Part shown: positions 9,388 to 63,000 of the stretch, one piece after another | Layout: each line of letters opens with the position of its first letter | How positions within the stretch are numbered: the stretch's first letter is position 1 | Assembly (NCBI GenBank): GCA_030248295.1 | Contig: JASANH010001278.1 | Span: 489,501 to 553,500 of the forward strand | Direction: 5' to 3' | Origin: Mesodorylaimus sp. YZB2_4 | Taxonomy: Eukaryota; Nematoda; Enoplea; Dorylaimida; Dorylaimidae | DNA length: 64,000 bases | Position numbers and translations under genes: made by a program | Notes under the pieces: generated by a model | Database searches by the model: none | Seen by the model: only the letters and a program-made list of their open reading frames with translations | What the model was told of the DNA's origin: nothing

Positions 9388-12300
9388 TCATGCACGGACA
9401 CTTTGTACCAAATCGATACGCTCTGACGCCGCTCCGTTTTGGACCATCATCTCGACTCGGACGCACGAGTCGAACTTGGAATCGATCAGTATGTCTTCCA
9501 ACCCGATTAGCGATAATCCGCTGAGTATTTGAGACAACAGACACAAGGCGAAGACGATGCTGCTGAACACGTAGGCCCGATGCTGTTCGGGGCTGGGGTG
9601 GTCCTTGTAGTAGAGGATGATCCGAGAGAGGAGTAACCCGTTTCCATCCACGTGTTGCCACAGGACGACGAAGGCCAGGGCGTTCATTATGGCCGCCAAG
9701 GGCAGGAAAACGGCCGAGGCGCGTAGTGTGAGGAATGTGCATGCTCCGGTGGCCAGGAGGAGGAGACCGAGGAATATGCACACGTCACCCAAATACTCGA
9801 CTGTGAAGAAGTTGGATAGGAAGAGGATAAACCCGAAGTTGACCATCAGTGCAGCACTGACCAACTGCAGGGCACCCATGATGGATAAGGCGCGGAATGT
9901 GTATTTGTGTTGGAGCTTGTTCGGAATAACGATGCCGATTGTTTCGCCTGGAAAAAGAAAACGAGTTGGAGCTTGTGGGATTCGAACTCGGCCTGTCTGG
10001 GTTTCTAGCCTCATTTTTTAATGAAGGTGTCTGGATGAAGAAGCGAGATTGCATGGTGTTTCTTTGTTCACTATATACAGTAAAACTGCCGAAGAACATG
10101 CTGGATAAGAAATAAAGTGATCTCTGATCTGTCGCGATGAAAAACACAAGAGGACCTCACCCACCCCACTTACTCAGTGTTCGCAGATACATAAATATTA
10201 GCACAGCCGAAAGCACAGTTTCCATAAGGGCGACGGAAGTCAGCAATAAGTGCACGCCTAATTTGGAAACCATGGGCATAGCAGCAGTGAAACTTTCATT
10301 GTGGTATCTCGGGACAATGACTTGATCTTGGGAAATCTTAGACGCAGCGTGATAATCGAACAAATACAAATCCCTTATTGCGTACAGTCCAACCAAGAAC
10401 ACCCATGCCACATTCAGCATAAGCACCAGGGCTGAGTAGGTTTGAGTCAGGCAATAGGATATTACCACATGGAGCAGAATAAGGATGGGCAAGGGTGTAA
10501 AGTCCAATAGATAAAGGAACTTTTCTCCAAAGCCAGCGATCCATACAATGTAATATAGGGAGGCCAGAAGGAGTTGAATTAGTGCTGTGTGCTGGTACAA
10601 TCGCCAGCCTCTTTTGGCAGCCAGTTCTTTAATGGCTGAGTTCAAGGCTTGTTGATTCGAGTCTCCTCTCGCTGTGTTTTGACTGTTTCCATTCATTAAT
10701 CGCTTGACGACGTTCAAAAATGAAAAAGCTGCCAGAACGAGAATGAAAAAATAAATTAATAGTTGCACAATGGATATTTTCACGTCCCGATCTGACATCG
10801 AAGATGCGGCGTAAATATTGGCCAGGGGATGGACATGGTTGCAGGCAGTGGTAACCAGAGCAGCGCCTTGAAGACTGAGCGAGACTACTTGAGTCCATCT
10901 TGTCCAATGAACTGATGATATGGCAACTGAGATACCAGCCACAGCGATCAGGAAACCGTGGTTGGTCATCTCGCTACTCAACGTCCATTTCACATTTTGC
11001 GACCATTGGCGATAGGAGAATGTGACTGAAAGAGAACATTGTAAATATTCGTTTAGTCCCCCCCCCCCCTGCCAGTTATCAAACCCCTAAATTAGTGGCC
11101 CTAATTTTCCCGAATCAGTAATAAAAATGCCCATGGGTATTAGAAATGTATTCGAGCGTTTTTGTATGAGTTGCAATTCGTAGCTTCATAAGTCGGTGCA
11201 AGGTCGTGTGAGGACGTGCGAATATACGAGGGGGGGGGCCAGAGAAAAAGTTGTCAAAGTCATGTGGCATGTTATAGGCCTAAGATGATAGATTTGGAGA
11301 GCAAGTTTACGAGACTGCAGTTTGAGGTGTCGGAAAAAAGACAGAATCGCAAGTTGATTAAAAAATTGACAAGAAATTCGAAATTAAAGAAGACGTTAAA
11401 TTTTGTACATGTAAAATACTTTTCCTAGCATGCAGGCTTTGGCCATACAGCCGTGTACATAGGGCTTGTAAAAATGCGCGTGCTTTAGCGTTCGTTCGGG
11501 ACTGGGATCAGGACTCGTTCAAATTCGAGCGGAACCGGGATTTCAAAGAGTGCTTTCTCCACTTTTTTTGGCTGATTACTTACACCCTACCCTGAGTAGC
11601 CAGCCAGCCAAAAACACTATTTCCTTGGATAATTCCTAGTACAGTATTTATGGTTGCATTCAAAATCAGGCAAGCAAAAGGGCGGAGAATCAGCCAACAA
11701 TTAGCAAAGGACTCCCTTTCTTCCTCTTTATCACTTCAATTATCCGCCAAATTTTCTTTAACTTCACCTTCCGAAACATCTCCACAACATTCAATCCAGA
11801 CCATGTTTTATCAGGATCAGGATCGGGATCCCGAACGGACGCTAGCAAGCTCGCAAACATATCTGCCAGTAGCTTTGACTGCGGAGCATTAATCAATTAA
11901 TAAAGAATTTTTAGATCGACGATTACAGACTTGCAAAAGTTGTACTAAAATAGGAAACATGTCTCGTGCTTTTTGTAGTTAGTATAACGGCCTTACTCGT
12001 TGTTTTTGCGCGAGTATGACAGGCTGGTATAAATTCCATCGTATTCACTGTTTTCTTCTGCTTTTGAGATGCCTCGACGGTGAGTTTTGGTTTTGGCGGA
12101 GGTGTTCTACGGATGCAGTTTTATGTGTCATCTCTCATAAGTGCATTACAAATGCTGCTGTGTGAGCTAATGACTTTTCCCTCACGGTCAATGCTTGCTG
12201 TAATGAAACTAAACATCTGACTATACCTTACCAAGTGCACAGTTTTTTGAAATGTATCCTGGCGTGTGCACGTGTACCTAACCAATTACTGAGCGTCTAG

Positions 12301-13764
12301 TGGTAGCGCTCACACGCGGCACTAACGAACAGGTTGGGTTTCCTATGCCCACACGCTTTAGAAGAGACGACTAACAGAAATACGCGATCTGACGAATCTG
12401 CAAACAAGAGACGCGCCATACTAATAACTAAGCCTACGCCTAAGCATAGGACAAGGTCGAAAGTGACAAGACATGCAAAAAGAAACAAAGGGATGGATGG
12501 AACAAGTTTCAAGTAGGAAATCCATCCTGCTCGTTAGTGCCGAGTTAGCGACCGCTCATACTCCTGATACAGTTATAAAAAACCCTATCCAGCAGATTTT
12601 GTTGTAAGTGCCTTGAACCTGCTGACCAATGAGAAATTCGCGCGAATTTAAAATTTTGACTTTGACAATGCGTTTTTGAGCCTTTTAGAAAAAGTGGGAG
12701 CATTTTTTGTTCGCAAAGTTAGCGTGTTCAGGCACAATTTCATGGGATTTTCTAAAAAGATTTGGCTACATCAACCGTTTGAAAGTGACATCTTCGCTTT
12801 GCCTGTTTTCGCAGACTGCATCGTTCGACTTACCATTTGTTCCATTGAGTGTGGGCATGGAATGTACGACTGTGGGCTCGCTCTCCAGCACAGCGTAGAC
12901 CCCAACAGTCAGTCCAGTAATAATAGCCCCGCATATGGACTGAGCCAACCCCAAGACCAGCGCCACGTGCTTGTGTTTGATGACGGCCGTAGATGAGCCT
13001 TCGCTCAAAGTGAATTGCGTGCGATCGATTGCCGTCGATGTAATCATTGCGGCAACCACAAGTTGAGCCAGAGATGACAGTGCCCCGATCAGACTGAATA
13101 TCAGGATGGCCACATCGATGCCGCGTTCTAATGGGTCTCTGATGTAGTAGAGATTCAAAAATTGCATGATCGTATCGCACAGTCCAGTTCCGAGTGCAAT
13201 CAGGGAAAAGCCGAGGAGGCAAGCCAGCGAAGTGGCCCTTAATCGACTGGCGGCCTTACACGATGCCAGACCGCTGAATAATAAAACCAACATGCCAAAT
13301 TTACTTTCGACTTGAAAGGCGGCATCGCCAGCGTACGATTCTGCGATAAAATCGAACACTCCGCACAAACAACACAAGACACCAGCGATGATGGAAACAG
13401 CTCCGCAAGCGGATAAAATAATCGATTCGCGTTTATTAGGTCCCCAAATCGGGGCACGAATATCGAATCGTTCATATTCAGCCATTTCTTCCCGTCGATC
13501 CGCGAAATGCGAAGTAAAACCACCAACTGCGAGATTACCCCCCGGGGTGGTCACTTCCAACTGCTGGACACCAGTCAGAGGCGAATTGTGTCTGGAACCA
13601 GAAGTGAGTACTGGCTCGAAATGATCATCATCGTCATCGGGATAATCGAAATCGTGATTTAATTGTAACGAAATATAATGGTCATCGTCGACCAAATTCG
13701 AATTATGCAAAGACGGATCGTTGGTGTAATCGACAATGGAATGCGGACTCGATCGGCGCGGCAT
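9388..13764 (-). CDS. large polytopic membrane protein built of four tandem four-helix modules
   Basis: Three exons read on the minus strand: 13764-12834, 11025-10174, 9947-9388. Phases match (931, 852, 560 bp) and give about 780 aa from a genuine ATG at 13764 to a stop at 9388. Residues 1-110 are hydrophilic with an Asp cluster (around 41-48) and are probably cytosolic. By eye there are then about 16 hydrophobic helices in four similar blocks: about 113-245, 266-420, 455-595 and 600-750. Sequons NGT and NVT (307, 310) and NES (553) lie in long loops that would be extracellular or lumenal. A short polar linker with NSQN and GDSNQQ (around 424-440) separates blocks 2 and 3. The middle and last exons have no plausible starts of their own, supporting one gene. 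The fold resembles repeated MS4A/tetraspan-like units, but I recognise no named family; function unknown. A related broken copy lies at 16290-17159. Confidence 0.8.
11058..11069. repeat. poly-C tract (12 C)
   Basis: Homopolymer run in intron 1 of the polytopic membrane gene. Confidence 0.85.
11486..11844 (+). mobile_element. non-autonomous TIR element, copy 1 (TAGCGTTCGTTCGG termini)
   Basis: Starts TAGCGTTCGTTCGGGA and ends with the inverted counterpart CCCGAACGGACGCTA. GGATC-type subterminal repeats lie just inside the ends, and the interior carries ACCCTGAGTAGCCAGC and TTCCTTGGATAATT. Copies 2 (25283-25964) and 3 (32696-33162, inverted) share the same termini and interior. It has no coding capacity and is MITE-like. 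It lies in the long first intron of the polytopic membrane gene. Confidence 0.75.
12068..12516 (+). CDS. candidate tiny basic protein, two exons (speculative)
   Basis: ATGCCTCGACG followed by a good GTGAGT donor lies about 35 bp after a TATA-like GGTATAAATT (12029-12038). A weak acceptor CTAACAG at 12375-12381 would join it in phase to an open frame ending at 12516. The product would be about 50 aa and very rich in Lys/Arg, reminiscent only in composition of small nuclear basic proteins. Weak points: the acceptor lacks a pyrimidine tract, the frame sits between imperfect inverted repeats (about 12293-12343 and 12510-12560), and the whole unit lies inside an intron of the opposite-strand gene. 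It may be a chance frame in a foldback element. Confidence 0.2.
12293..12560. repeat. imperfect inverted repeat around the basic open frame
   Basis: Arms at about 12293-12343 and 12510-12560 share CGGCACTAACGA(A/G)CAGG and TTTCCTA in opposite orientation, with about 170 bp between. This suggests a small foldback element or an RNA able to form a long hairpin. Confidence 0.5.
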
Positions 13765-20593: not shown

Positions 20594-23500
20594 TTAGACA
20601 GTCGTCACAAAACGAAAAACATCTTCAGCCAGTAATTTTGGTTCTTCAAACGCTGCAAAATGTCCACCACGAGGAAAATCCGTGTAGACGGTGATATTAC
20701 GAAATTTATAGGCTAAGAAATTTCGTGGCTGAGTTAATAAAAACTCGTTTGGAAGAGCCGCTATGCCAGTGGGCACGAAAACTGGAGCTCTAAATGAAAA
20801 AGCATAACATAATATAATTCTGCACTTTCAAATCATTTTTTTCATACTTACGCTTCATAAGCCAAATGAAGCGGATCCGTGAAATACTCCCTGTAAAACC
20901 GCTGTGATGTTGCAATACTACCCGTCGTCCAATAAATCATAATATTCGTCAACAACTCATCAAGTGTGAAATGTCTGGTCAAGCCGCCATCACGAAAACT
21001 ACGGAAATTATAATTGGTCCATGTTGAAAATTTTTCCAAAATGTAGGCGGCGAGACCAAGTGGAGAATCATTCAACGAAAAACCTACAAAAATACGAGAA
21101 GAAATATTGTAAAACAAGGTTTCGCAGGACTTTTGCATTGAATTTTTCAAGACTTTATGAGTCTGTAGTTCAAAATATGCTTTTCAAGACAACAAGGGAC
21201 AGCTGAGTCCTTTCGAACAAACTTACCCACAGTGTCCGGCTTGCTCGCTTGCAGATGCATATAACCAGATTCACCAATCAAACTGGAAAACTTTTCGCCC
21301 ATCGGGTACACTTTGTGATAATCAGTCGGGTGTAAAATCAAAGAAGGCGCGACCAGTCCGAGAAGCATCTGCACAGCAATTCCAGGAAAAACAAATGGCG
21401 AAACAAAGGCCATGTTGATGTGCAGACCAATGACCCTAAACGAAGAAAAATTTTAACTATACTCAAAACATTATTATTGCTAAAAATTGAAATAGGGCGC
21501 AAAGAATGGGAGGCAAATTTGCGTTTGTGAGTGGCTTCCCACAGCATGCGATCGACAGAAGGCTCCAAATTTAAATTTGTATCGCGCACCCGGTCATTTT
21601 GCAAAAAAATGCACTTCTGAACCAACAGCGCGGGAAATTCAAATCTTTACGAGCACGGCAAAGCCAATCATGGATACAGTATTAGTAAGGAAGGAAACTT
21701 ACTCTTGAGGAAACGCCTGAGCCAAATGTGTTGTGATTATACTGCCCCAGTCACCACCCTGGCAATAGTAGCGATCAAATTTTAGGCGTCGCATCAATTT
21801 GTGAAAAACACGAGCGGCAGCGATTGTACTGAATCCTAGAAAAAAATACAAGAAAGATATTAATAAGGCAATGTCTCCAATTCAATAAACACTAATTTTA
21901 CAAAATACGAAAAAATCTCAAACATGGAATCATGTTGAGATGTGCGATTGATGCAACGCAGACTATTAAAAGGCAATTGAAACTGAATAATGAAATCAAA
22001 AAAAAAAACGAAGCAGTCCAGTAAACATACTGTAAATCGCAGTCAGCGAAAAAAAAGAGCGCTTTTGCAAAAAAATTCTACTATTGTCCAGAAGACATCG
22101 CCATGCCAAGTAGGCCTAGCTTGACACTGACCTTAGCCGCAATTGGGTAATATGTACTGTAGCTGCCTATGTATGTCTCACTCTTGATACCTACCATGCT
22201 CACAGTGGTGGCTGGTACAACATTCATCAGCATTGATGTCAGAATGTGTGTATTCTGTATGTTTTTAAAGACCTCAAGCCTTTTCAATGTATTTTATGCA
22301 TTAGTCACGACCAGCTGTCACAGAATGAAAGAATTGCAGCCCTATTAATTCATACTGCTGTTGCATCCAACAGTAAAGTCCATTCTTCAATACATTCTAA
22401 GCCTTCAGTCAACTAGAGCACCCTGACCTGGATTACACATTATATCTACCTACAGTAGTCGACAAAAGTAGATCTCTGCTGCTCTTAGTTGTTATCTGAG
22501 GTATTATCAACTCATAAATCAGTATGTTCAAGCCAGTAGCATCAGTATGTGCCCAGTGGCTTGCACATACTGATTTATGAGCAACCCACTCCGCTGTAGT
22601 TTTTGGCAACAGAAACAGCAGGGCGGCTGGCCTTCCTGGCTTCACGAAAATATGTACTAGCTAATGCATGCTCGATTTCAGGATTTCTTACGAAACAGCG
22701 CTATTTCTGTCCTCATCGCTCAATGGAAACGGAAGAGAGCACAGTTGCAACCAAGTCTGGCAGGCACAAGAGAGAATGTGGTCAGCCGGAACAATCCCCG
22801 ACTAGGCAAGAAAAGTCATGCGACTACACCTGCGGCTGAAACATGAACCCGAGGGGTTGACGATTGATGGCTAGAGGAGATCAGTTAATCTTCTTCATTT
22901 GCAATCCCAGCAGGCGAAAAGGTTACTGGTCCGTTAAGGCGTAAACTCCCCAGCAACCATGCTGGCATATTGACGCTGTACAGTCCAGAAGAGATCCAAG
23001 CACAAGCTTACGCTACAGAAGCATCAGAAATCACTATATCAGGTCCCACCCACCAGAGGAAGCTTCAGCTGTTAATCGGGAGGCCCCAGATTTCTCCGTT
23101 AGTTCAACCACTGATCATAAGTCAGCGAACTATTAGCCACAGTCAACTTTACAGCTCAAGAGTTTTCAAAATCTCTGCGAGTAGTTACACAAACAGGACC
23201 ATTTCCCTCCGCAGGGTCGAGTCAAAGGAGTCTGTCCAACAGCCTCCTCTGACTTGACCCCGCTGCACTTTAATAATCTTTGGCAAAATGCTAAAGTATC
23301 ACCTCAGCTTACTTTCAGCCCATTTCGCCTTACCTTTCTTCTTTGGCGCATCCGACCATGCATATCCTGGAATGGATGGTGCAATGACGTGGAAGGCCAC
23401 ACCGCCATCCACACCCAGCTTGGACTTGGGATCAGTCAGCATGGGCAGAATCTTATAGAATTCATACACTGATCCTGGCCACCCGTGCACGAGCAACAGA

Positions 23501-23931
23501 GGCAGAACCTTTTTATATTTTCCACTCGGTGGTTTAGCTTCGATAAAATGAATTTTCAATCCTTCAATTTTAGTTTTAAAATGTGAAAATTCATTCAATT
23601 GAGCTTCCGCTTTTCGCCAATCGTAAACATTTCGCCAATAATTTTTCACTCCTCTCAAATATTCTGTATTGAATCCATACTCGAAATTCGTATTTTCTAG
23701 TGGATCATAAAATCTAGCTTTGTCCAAACGAAGTCTTAAATCTTCCAAAACTGCATCGCTGACATTGATAGAAAATGGAACGATTTTTGTATCGTCCGCT
23801 GATTTTGCGCCTTGTCCGAAATAACCATCTTTATTTGGCGGAAGTTTAGTTGGTAAATAATAATTTTTGTTAAACAGATAAGCCAAACCGATGCTGACCA
23901 AAATGGCTGCTAAAGCGAGTAATTTTCCCAT
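20594..23931 (-). CDS. EPHX1: microsomal epoxide hydrolase, complete, 5 exons
   Basis: Hydrolyses epoxides to diols at the ER membrane; arthropod members degrade juvenile hormone. Minus-strand exons: 23931-23334, 21835-21703, 21435-21227, 21083-20852, 20789-20594; phases join into 455 aa, the same length as human EPHX1. Visible: an N-terminal membrane anchor (about residues 3-19), the N-terminal epoxide hydrolase domain ([23 protein letters not shown]), the oxyanion motif HGWPGS, the nucleophile Asp in GGDWG (exon 2), paired Tyr-containing cap segments such as [15 protein letters not shown] and [11 protein letters not shown], and the catalytic His in [11 protein letters not shown]. Intron 1 (1498 bp) holds a dispersed repeat. 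An acceptor-like TTTTTCAG lies 4 nt before the ATG. The gene is 358 bp downstream of PTGES2 on the same strand. Confidence 0.97.
22725..22885 (+). repeat. dispersed repeat copy in EPHX1 intron 1
   Basis: Resembles the copies at 29540-29730 (same orientation) and 5601-5825 (opposite): GACTACACCTGC, GAAACAT and GGTTGACG blocks occur in the same order. Not coding. Confidence 0.55.
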
Positions 23932-24289
23932 CTCCCTGAAAAATTCAATGACATTTTACATGCTTGAAAAAATTTTTTTGAACGCATTAGAACCGTTCGA
24001 AAATTTATGAAAAATTGAATTGACACGCAAAACAATGCATGCTGCGCATTGAAAACTTTCGAAGCTACAAAGCAGAATCAGCTTTTTCTGCCAAACGTAA
24101 AGCCCAAAATTGAGCAGAACCAAAACATCGCGAAAAACCTTCAAAAAAAGGTTTGCCAACCCTTATCCAGAAATATCAATTCCTTCCGTCAACTATTTTA
24201 CTTTTAATCATCGATTATGCAGGGATAAAAATATCATCTACCTTATCCGCTTTGCAACTATTCAAAAGCGTCAACTCCTACATTCCATA
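23932..24289. other. 358-bp spacer between PTGES2 stop and EPHX1 start
   Basis: No frame of note. The spacer ends with ATTTTTCAG four bases before the EPHX1 ATG. A spacer of this size with an acceptor at the downstream start is what an operon with trans-splicing would show, but a private promoter plus a 5' UTR intron is equally possible. Confidence 0.5.
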
Positions 24290-34524
<10,235 letters not shown>

Positions 34525-60059: not shown

Positions 60060-63000
60060 AGGTCTATGCTACCCCATAAGAGTATGGACGTAATGCAAAA
60101 GGCAAAGATACTCCACTATTCTGCATGGAAAGATTTTGTGGCAGCGAGCGATATGCTGCTTTGAAAATTATTTGAGGTACCTGAACAACAGTATTCAGGG
60201 TCGACCATACCACCGTACCGTACCATAACGCCGTATCAGGTGTGGTACAGTATAGTGCGATACGCATTTTTGTGAAAGTTGGACTTTCGCTAGCTAGCGC
60301 AGGCGTGCACGGAAGGGGTTGCTTGGGTGATCGAGTACCCCACGACCCTGAAAAGTAAGGTTCACCTCTCTAAACTTTGTGCATTCCTGGCCATGCGTTT
60401 GGTTGCATGTCCACTTAATACATTTTTGTGTTTTTGCAGCGCAAGATTAAAATTTTTTAATCTTGCGCGGCAGATAACCCTAGAGGCGATCACAGCGGTT
60501 GACATTGCGGCCAATCCATCGCTTGCGGTTAGTGTTCGCGCCTGTTTTCTGATTGAAAAATTGTTTCCTGTCTCAAATTGTTTCCTTCCAAAAATGTGGT
60601 AAGATACGAAATTGTTTTCAGAAGTGGCGAAAGTAAGTTGATTAGGAAAATGTTAGGCAGTATTACTTTGAATTCTTGGTTTTTCAGCAGGAGATGTTTC
60701 ACGGTTCTGTCAAAGGATGTGGTGGTGAATAGTAAGCGCGCGGTGGGATTCATGCAGTCCCAAAAGGGCTGACGAAGAGGGAAGGCGCCGCCGTCAAGTC
60801 TGTGGAATAATGTGAGAATATGTTGCCGTCACTTTGTCGATGGCCGACTGACCAAAGATAATCCGTATCCAGTCCTACACATGGGGCAAAGTGATGTACA
60901 ATTGACATCAGGCACAGCGAGATTCGTGATGCACCCCAAGTGGACGAAGTAGGAGAAGTGATCCATGAAAATAGAAATAGTGAAGAAGTTATAAATGACG
61001 AAAACGTTGTCGCTAGTGCCCTTCTGGGTTTGACTGTCGGGCCAGCACAACGATTGGAAGCCACAATCTATTGTCCATGTCCTGGCTTAGACGAAGATGG
61101 GGAAGAAGAAGCAGAAGGTAAGGCTGGGTGAACTGTTGGCCGTGAATTATGGAGGATGAGGGTTGTAGGAATTACTGCATGCACCGCTGGAGAAGTAAAT
61201 GGCTATTTAAAAAGCATAGACAGTCTTGTCCAGTTTCATAGGCTTATGCCCTCTCGTCAGTACATCGATACTGCATAGGCACTATGGTACTAGCAAAGGA
61301 ATGGAAGTCTTTCCAAAACCCATGACTTGTGTATCTTTTCAGTTTCCGCCCGCTAATAACTATAGCTAATAAAGACAGTCTCGCACCAAAAACAGCAGTA
61401 CCGTCCAAGATAAAATAAACGAACCATCCCTTGTTACCACTCAAACGGGTCAAGAAAGACGAATTTTCATTGGCTTTGGAACTGGATACAGCAGCAGTCC
61501 AAGACCAGTGCATAGTGCCAGGGGGAAAGATGATGCACTTTGCAAGATAATGCGCAGTTGCGTGAGAAACGACTTGCGTAGTGACGAAGGTACAATTATG
61601 CGATTCTGCTAAAGCAAGACGTTGTCCTCGAAAGATATTTTCGTGCGTCTATCGAAGTATGGCATGACTTCGTTTTGCAAAGTCTTCTTTTCTGGCCATT
61701 CGCGTTCCAGAAATGCGATCACTCTACCCAATGCGGGATCGCTGAGTGTACGTTTGCGTAGCATTGTACGAGTAACGGGTAATGCCTCAAATTGCCGTCC
61801 TTGTCCATGCGGAAACCCAGATACCTGACTTCCTATTGCATTAAGCGTAGCTTCGAAGTCTGTGTTCGCAAACCGACTTGGCGCAATTTGCTGAAAATAA
61901 GACGAAGCCGGTGAAGGTGCTCTTTTCTGGTCCGTCCTCCTGTCGCGATGTCATCCATCAGACAGGAAACTCCGTCGATGCCTCTCTGAGAAGTTTGTCC
62001 ATGAAGTGCTGAAAAATAACTGGCGCTGAACTAATCCCGAAGGGCATGCGTTTGTAACGGTAGTATCCGCGATGCGTTGCAATCACCGAATACTTCTGTG
62101 ACTTTTCATCCAATTCCAACTGCAGGAATGCGTCCTTTAGGTCGATCACGGAAAATTCTGTGAACCCTTGGAAATTGGAGACCACCTCCTCGAACTGTGG
62201 CAGGGGATGAGGATTCACAGTCATGTACGGATTGATTGAAACTTTGTAATCGCCACAAAGACGTACTTGGCCATTTGGCTTTGGAACGTAAACGACAGGG
62301 GATGCCCATTCAACTGCTGTGACCGCGGGATCCACTGGCTCGATGATCCAAAAATTTTGATCGGATTCGGATATTTCACATGATCTGATCCAATCTGAAA
62401 ATTTTCTGATCCAATCCAACAAACCCCCATCAGCCAAAGTGATAGGTGGATCGGTTATCTGAGCTGATGTGGATTGGGATCCGCCTAGGAAAATGTGTAT
62501 CTGAGAGAAAATGCAGATGAATCTATCACACATTGCACGTGCACGGCAAGTAGGCCAGTACAGCCGTACCAGATTTTACAACGATTTGTGCGATAACTTG
62601 GTGTTGGGGTGAATATTTTCAGGGTTCCCAGCGTCCTCGAAATCCTCAAAATCCTCAAAAAGTCCTAAAAAAGTCAGAAAATTTTTTTCTCGACTTTTTT
62701 AATCTGCCGAGATGAAATTTTTGGTTGGTACAGGTACGTTGTGGTACGGTTGGTACCAGGCCTCAGGTACGGGTGCGGTCAAAAAGTCGGTATGGTCGAC
62801 CCTGGGTTAAGACAGGCTGACCCCACGGTGTCAGGCGTAGTAAGTACGCCATGAGTGTATTGCGACGCAGATCAAATTATTACTCAACCCTTCTTTATGG
62901 AATTCCTAATTATATAAAAAACCGTTATACTTGGGCGATATGCCGTATTCGCTTACTCTTTGTCTAAGAGGGTGTCACAATTTTTTATTTGGCACGGGAG

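Follow-up and report, generated by a model that had tools for sequence, protein, structure and literature searches.

A predicted 16-helix membrane protein with four tandem, probably MS4A-like modules

We analysed a 64,000-nucleotide stretch of DNA (positions 489501-553500 of contig C12 of genome G000; hereafter the window) and found on its minus strand a three-exon gene whose 780-residue product is predicted to span the membrane with 16 helices, grouped in four tandem modules of four. We read these modules as very diverged relatives of the MS4A/CD20 unit, not as formal members of the Pfam CD20 family. The interpretation that we favour, and consider probable, is that the four modules derive from MS4A/CD20, that the protein is a single-chain counterpart of MS4A oligomers and that module 3 is its sensing or docking unit.

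The original prediction for this locus, made from the nucleotide sequence alone, had joined three open stretches across two GT-AG introns. When GT-AG choices were scanned up to about 15 bases from either junction, a single solution stayed in frame. It yields 780 codons and a stop, with both introns in phase 1 and no stop within the exons (Table 1). This sole solution and a paralog of equal exon plan confirm, at the level of sequence, the coordinates, the joins and the membership of the three stretches in one gene. The paralog came from a whole-genome search of 145 Mb in 1067 contigs, which returned the gene itself (in its three exons) and one further place, 42% and 47% identical in two pieces, on contig C26 (C26:256942-258968; L020:2730-5062). 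Its best model, picked by alignment score among 130 in-frame splice choices, has 728 residues, shares 303 of 712 aligned residues with the window protein and follows the same plan of three exons and two phase-1 introns. In both genes intron 2 splits a homologous residue (W595 = Q538), and intron 1 falls within the same predicted outer loop, offset by about ten residues in the alignment. In that best model both paralog introns are short (63 and 83 bp, compared with 1808 and 226 bp in the window), and an in-frame TAG within the paralog's first match falls in the first of them. A runner-up for this intron (3538-3600 of L020) has splice sites that look better by eye and leaves the length unchanged.

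To find relatives outside the genome, we searched a set of 5.8 billion predicted proteins, scoring about 8000 candidates per search. Four were found: P0001, an uninterrupted frame of 708 residues that is 25% identical and aligns to residues 140-695 of the window protein (144 of 581 columns identical), and P0002, P0003 and P0004, which are 70-79% identical over the parts found. Junction 2 lies inside the aligned sequence of P0001, and P0003 is contiguous across it; P0001 is gapped at junction 1 and therefore backs that join only by continuity on either side. Deduced from protein letters, the end of P0002 appears to read as a GTAAG-type donor and the start of P0004 as an acceptor, both at junction 2. 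A search of the same collection seeded with P0001 (again about 8000 candidates scored) returned P0001 itself and no other match.

Hydropathy averaged over the window sequence and its relatives gave 16 strong peaks in four blocks and one layout, in agreement with the roughly 16 hydrophobic helices first proposed. Weak peaks at 78 and 306 were excluded, and helix limits were placed by hand from the peaks; when the window sequence is scanned by itself on the plain Kyte-Doolittle scale, helix 7 is missed and helices 13-15 run together. Each module consists of helix a, an outer loop (7-41 residues), helix b, an inner turn (2-6), helix c, a second outer loop (17-38), helix d and an inner linker (25-38). 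The acidic cytosolic head of the original prediction corresponds to the N-terminal tail, predicted inside, and all three sequons (N307, N310 and N553) lie in predicted outer loops, where that prediction had placed them. Basic residues (K/R) number 22 in the 144 residues of the eight predicted inner loops after the tail and 13 in the 177 residues of the outer loops.

Sequence evidence for a link to MS4A comes from proteins of the same genome. We built a CD20-like profile, with hand-cut domains, from seven of nine CD20-like places, leaving out L011 (a near-copy of L012) and a place on contig C132. Modules 1 and 4 matched this profile with E-values of 2.9e-4 and 0.012, each for a single comparison, and none of 100 shuffles preserving residue class reached either score. 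Both matches are in register over helices a-c and both gained from adding the paralog, before which 15 of 200 shuffles reached the module 4 score. When a model of module 4 (predicted local distance difference test, pLDDT, 66.6), the one module with a usable model, was searched against folds in the PDB, FceRI chains were the best match in both Foldseek and VIA. P0001 folded alone gave a pLDDT of 42.6, and an alignment of P0001 with the three exons (A2) was dropped for folding because it placed exon 3 on module 1. Sequence searches of the PDB yielded one chance-level row (E 2.2), none, and one (E 0.51). A matrix of the first CD20-like helix ranked the a helices of modules 2 and 3 fifth and fourth of 16, with an anchor chosen after the modules had been seen; the corresponding matrices for CD20-like helices 2-4 gave no convincing result against the protein.

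Several results weigh against an MS4A origin. The 780-residue protein, its exons, P0001-P0004 and the module 4 pieces gave no CD20 (PF04103) match at E <= 10, and the gene is not among the nine CD20-like places of a genome-wide PF04103 search. Modules 2 and 3 show no clear CD20-like signal, their scores against the profile being reached by 9 and 7 of 100 shuffles, respectively. Peripherin, uroplakin and designed bundles trail the best FceRI match by no more than about 2 Z units, and PMC2826416 puts forward convergence as a possible source of earlier MS4A-like hits in invertebrates. These points would fit four generic tetraspan bundles in tandem (tetraspanin-, claudin- or MARVEL-like, or lineage-specific), forming a structural membrane scaffold that resembles MS4A by convergence. 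We regard this alternative as less likely: against CD20-like proteins, modules 1 and 4 exceed 100 of 100 class-preserving shuffles in register, and both matches rise when the paralog is added. Tetraspanins carry a CCG motif in their large outer loop, whereas none of the window protein's eight outer loops contains CCG; membership in that family (PF00335), for which there was also no Pfam match, was rejected. No Pfam family matches the 780-residue protein, and the earlier remark that no named family with this layout is known holds within the reach of Pfam. The suggested MS4A-like character is supported for two of the four modules, 1 and 4, through the in-register match and, for module 4, the nearest fold.

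The four-fold repetition on which this reading builds is weak by pairwise comparison and clear in a whole-protein helix test. The latter compared all 16 helices by a composition-corrected score against shuffles that keep the residue class of every position. Helices in like positions of different modules were more alike than others (0 of 500 shuffles at each of three widths), and permuting helices with their orientation kept gave P values of 0.0007-0.0024. Without the paralog, the same test gave 0, 1 and 1 of 1000 shuffles and P values of 0.0026-0.016. Taken sequence by sequence, the signal is small in the window protein alone (1.4-2.7) and clear in the paralog (3.4-5.0) and P0001 (5.0-5.4). 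Pairwise comparison of module profiles from six sequences counts against four repeated modules, in that only two of the six pairs stand out: modules 1 and 4 (score 20.5, reached by 2 of 100 class-preserving shuffles) and modules 2 and 4 (19.1, 1 of 100). For the remaining pairs, the score was reached by 7 (modules 1 and 2), 92 (1 and 3), 21 (2 and 3) and 47 (3 and 4) of 100 shuffles each. The profiles without the paralog had put modules 2 and 4 in register (0 of 100), but in the top-scoring alignment modules 1 and 4 did not keep register (4 of 100). The two of six pairs, together with the conserved polar residues within module 3 helices, might suggest a 16-helix transporter or channel without a true four-fold repeat, in which the repeats are ordinary helix alternation and E579, H569 and Q461 line a substrate path. 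We find this improbable, given that the period-of-four signal outlasts class-keeping shuffles and orientation-keeping permutations, that the Pfam search gave no known transporter family and that the PDB sequence searches gave no relative of solved structure. The tandem four-helix modules of the original prediction are upheld by the whole-protein helix test. A gene-prediction artefact, whether three unrelated open stretches or a decaying gene, is very improbable: the model comes from genomic and protein sequence and contains one large intron, but the paralog shares its exon plan and phases, P0002, P0003 and P0004 are 70-79% identical across the pieces found, P0003 is unbroken over junction 2 and the exons are free of internal stops.

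Within the favoured arrangement of four diverged MS4A-like modules, module 3 is distinguished by its conservation. It shares 50 of 141 residues with P0001, and modules 1, 2 and 4 share 35 of 135, 31 of 135 and 32 of 143, respectively. Q461, H569 and E579 in predicted module 3 helices, as well as H333 in module 2, are kept in every covering sequence. On the strength of this conservation, the outer-end motifs and the kept intrahelical residues, we propose that module 3 may form a site for a ligand, an ion or a partner protein, to which LDFTPLP, IRDLYLFDYH, E579, H569 and Q461 would all contribute. Modules 2 and 3 would share the MS4A-like origin of modules 1 and 4, and the four may pack as two fused dimers; having four units on one chain would fix the number and order of an MS4A-type oligomer. 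Modules 1, 2 and 4 would be mainly structural, framing module 3, and the acidic N-terminal tail, to which a change at the module 3 site could be relayed, would bring in partners from the cytosol. The protein would likely act as a one-piece membrane sensor or docking scaffold. Such a role is plausible by analogy, because known MS4A activities include odour reception (PMC11026480) and control of endoplasmic reticulum calcium (PMC8901757).

Table 1 Features of the gene, in window positions (TM, predicted transmembrane helix)
Feature	Position	Strand	Description
Exon 1	12834..13764	-	Residues 1-310 and first base of codon 311; encodes the acidic N-terminal tail, all of module 1 and the opening helix of module 2; matched by exon 1 of the paralog
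Intron 1	11026..12833	-	1808 bp, GT-AG, phase 1; falls in an outer loop predicted for module 2; same loop and phase in paralog
Exon 2	10174..11025	-	Remainder of module 2 and almost all of module 3; P0002 78% identical over 67% of query piece
Intron 2	9948..10173	-	226 bp, GT-AG, phase 1; placed after helix 12, ahead of module 4; paralog intron at homologous residue
Exon 3	9388..9947	-	Module 4, C-terminal tail and stop codon; relatives P0003 and P0004
N-terminal tail	13423..13764	-	Residues 1-114, with 21 D/E and 9 K/R; predicted inside; paralog and P0001 likewise carry an acidic cluster
Module 1	13024..13446	-	Residues 107-247, predicted TM1-4; of the four, matches the CD20-like profile best in sequence
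Module 2	10688..12993	-	Residues 258-423, predicted TM5-8; interrupted by intron 1
Module 3	9943..10621	-	Residues 446-596, predicted TM9-12; best conserved of the four; split close to its end by intron 2
Module 4	9484..9915	-	Residues 606-749, predicted TM13-16; modelled, with FceRI four-helix chains as nearest fold
Motif LDFTPLP	10487..10507	-	Residues 484-490, predicted outer end of TM10; identical in window protein, paralog, P0001 and P0002
Motif IRDLYLFDYH	10349..10378	-	Residues 527-536, predicted outer end of TM11; small changes among window protein, paralog, P0001, P0002 and P0003
E579	10220..10222	-	Sole acidic residue in predicted helix core kept in 5 of 5 covering sequences

Elsewhere in the window, we noted an exon of a microsomal-type epoxide hydrolase (23302-23955, minus strand; EHN 3.2e-35, with an alpha/beta hydrolase match) and a reverse transcriptase fragment that is likely a retroelement remnant (61961-62575, minus strand; RVT_1 2.9e-13). 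Short tandem arrays of the CCCGA / ATCGGG type lie at 28710-28782 and 25893-25950, with similar text seen by eye near 11830, and an Rfam search of the window gave no match. The genome also holds fifteen COX1-like places (L021-L023 among them), 7 of which contain internal TAA or TAG and some of which lie on long contigs such as C1 and C47; these are apparently mitochondrial pieces in the nuclear assembly. The best copy, L021, makes sense when TGA is read as Trp and AGA/AGG as Ser, which we take to fit invertebrate code 5.

The existence of a paralog and of relatives makes it probable that the four-unit arrangement is old. As a tentative extension, possible but held with some doubt, an old invertebrate family with two paralogs here may have fused four MS4A-like modules into a single-chain tetramer in which module 3 is an outward receptor site, and both MS4A-type proteins and their tandem assembly may predate jawed vertebrates. 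If true, this would run against the published view that invertebrates lack them. Should the favoured interpretation be right, the covalent four-unit form would lend itself to studying how MS4A units assemble and, with nine CD20-like places in the same genome, would reopen the question of whether MS4A is a vertebrate invention, as PMC2826416 concluded. The conserved module 3 names specific residues for a search for ligand or partner sites.

Separately, seven CD20-like (PF04103) places of this probably invertebrate genome, L007-L013, lie over the curated cut-off, in contrast to the published absence from invertebrates. Two of them, L011 (C2:1979302-1979754, minus strand) and L012 (C2:2091535-2091987, plus strand), are near-identical, inverted and about 112 kb apart, which may reflect a recent inverted duplication or an assembly effect.

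Among known four-helix proteins, the dystrophin-complex chain seen in 8yt8_S and 9c3c_n, which we take to be sarcospan, differs in having one unit, and tetraspanins (CD81, peripherin, uroplakin) rank lower in Foldseek for module 4 (CD81 E 0.15). Members of the MS4A family (CD20/MS4A1, FceRI beta/MS4A2; PF04103) come closer. They share the four-helix unit, the predicted inside termini and the very short inner turn that links helices b and c, all of which the predicted topology gives to each of the four modules, and they include the nearest folds for module 4 and the same-genome matches of modules 1 and 4. They differ in having one unit per chain, whereas the window protein has four, lacks a Pfam match, carries a long acidic N-terminal tail and includes two modules (2 and 3) for which no sequence relationship is detectable. 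In PMC2826416, CD20 is described as an oligomer, and MS4A proteins more generally are reported as oligomers. The same text describes tandem ('long') MS4A proteins with 2 units in chicken, opossum and platypus and 6 units in opossum, each unit being assigned to a human MS4A, and takes them as fused dimers or multiples of dimers, tied to oligomerization. These resemble the window protein, as we read it, in carrying several MS4A-like units head to tail in one polypeptide, and since they are published, the principle of tandem MS4A is already known; the claim that repetition of an MS4A-like unit would be a novel architecture is therefore too strong. They differ in having 2 or 6 units, whereas the protein described here has four, diverged nearly beyond recognition, in a probable invertebrate. 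A four-unit MS4A form and an invertebrate tandem form were not found in searches of the open-licence literature. What is new is a four-unit, probably invertebrate family and its conserved third block.
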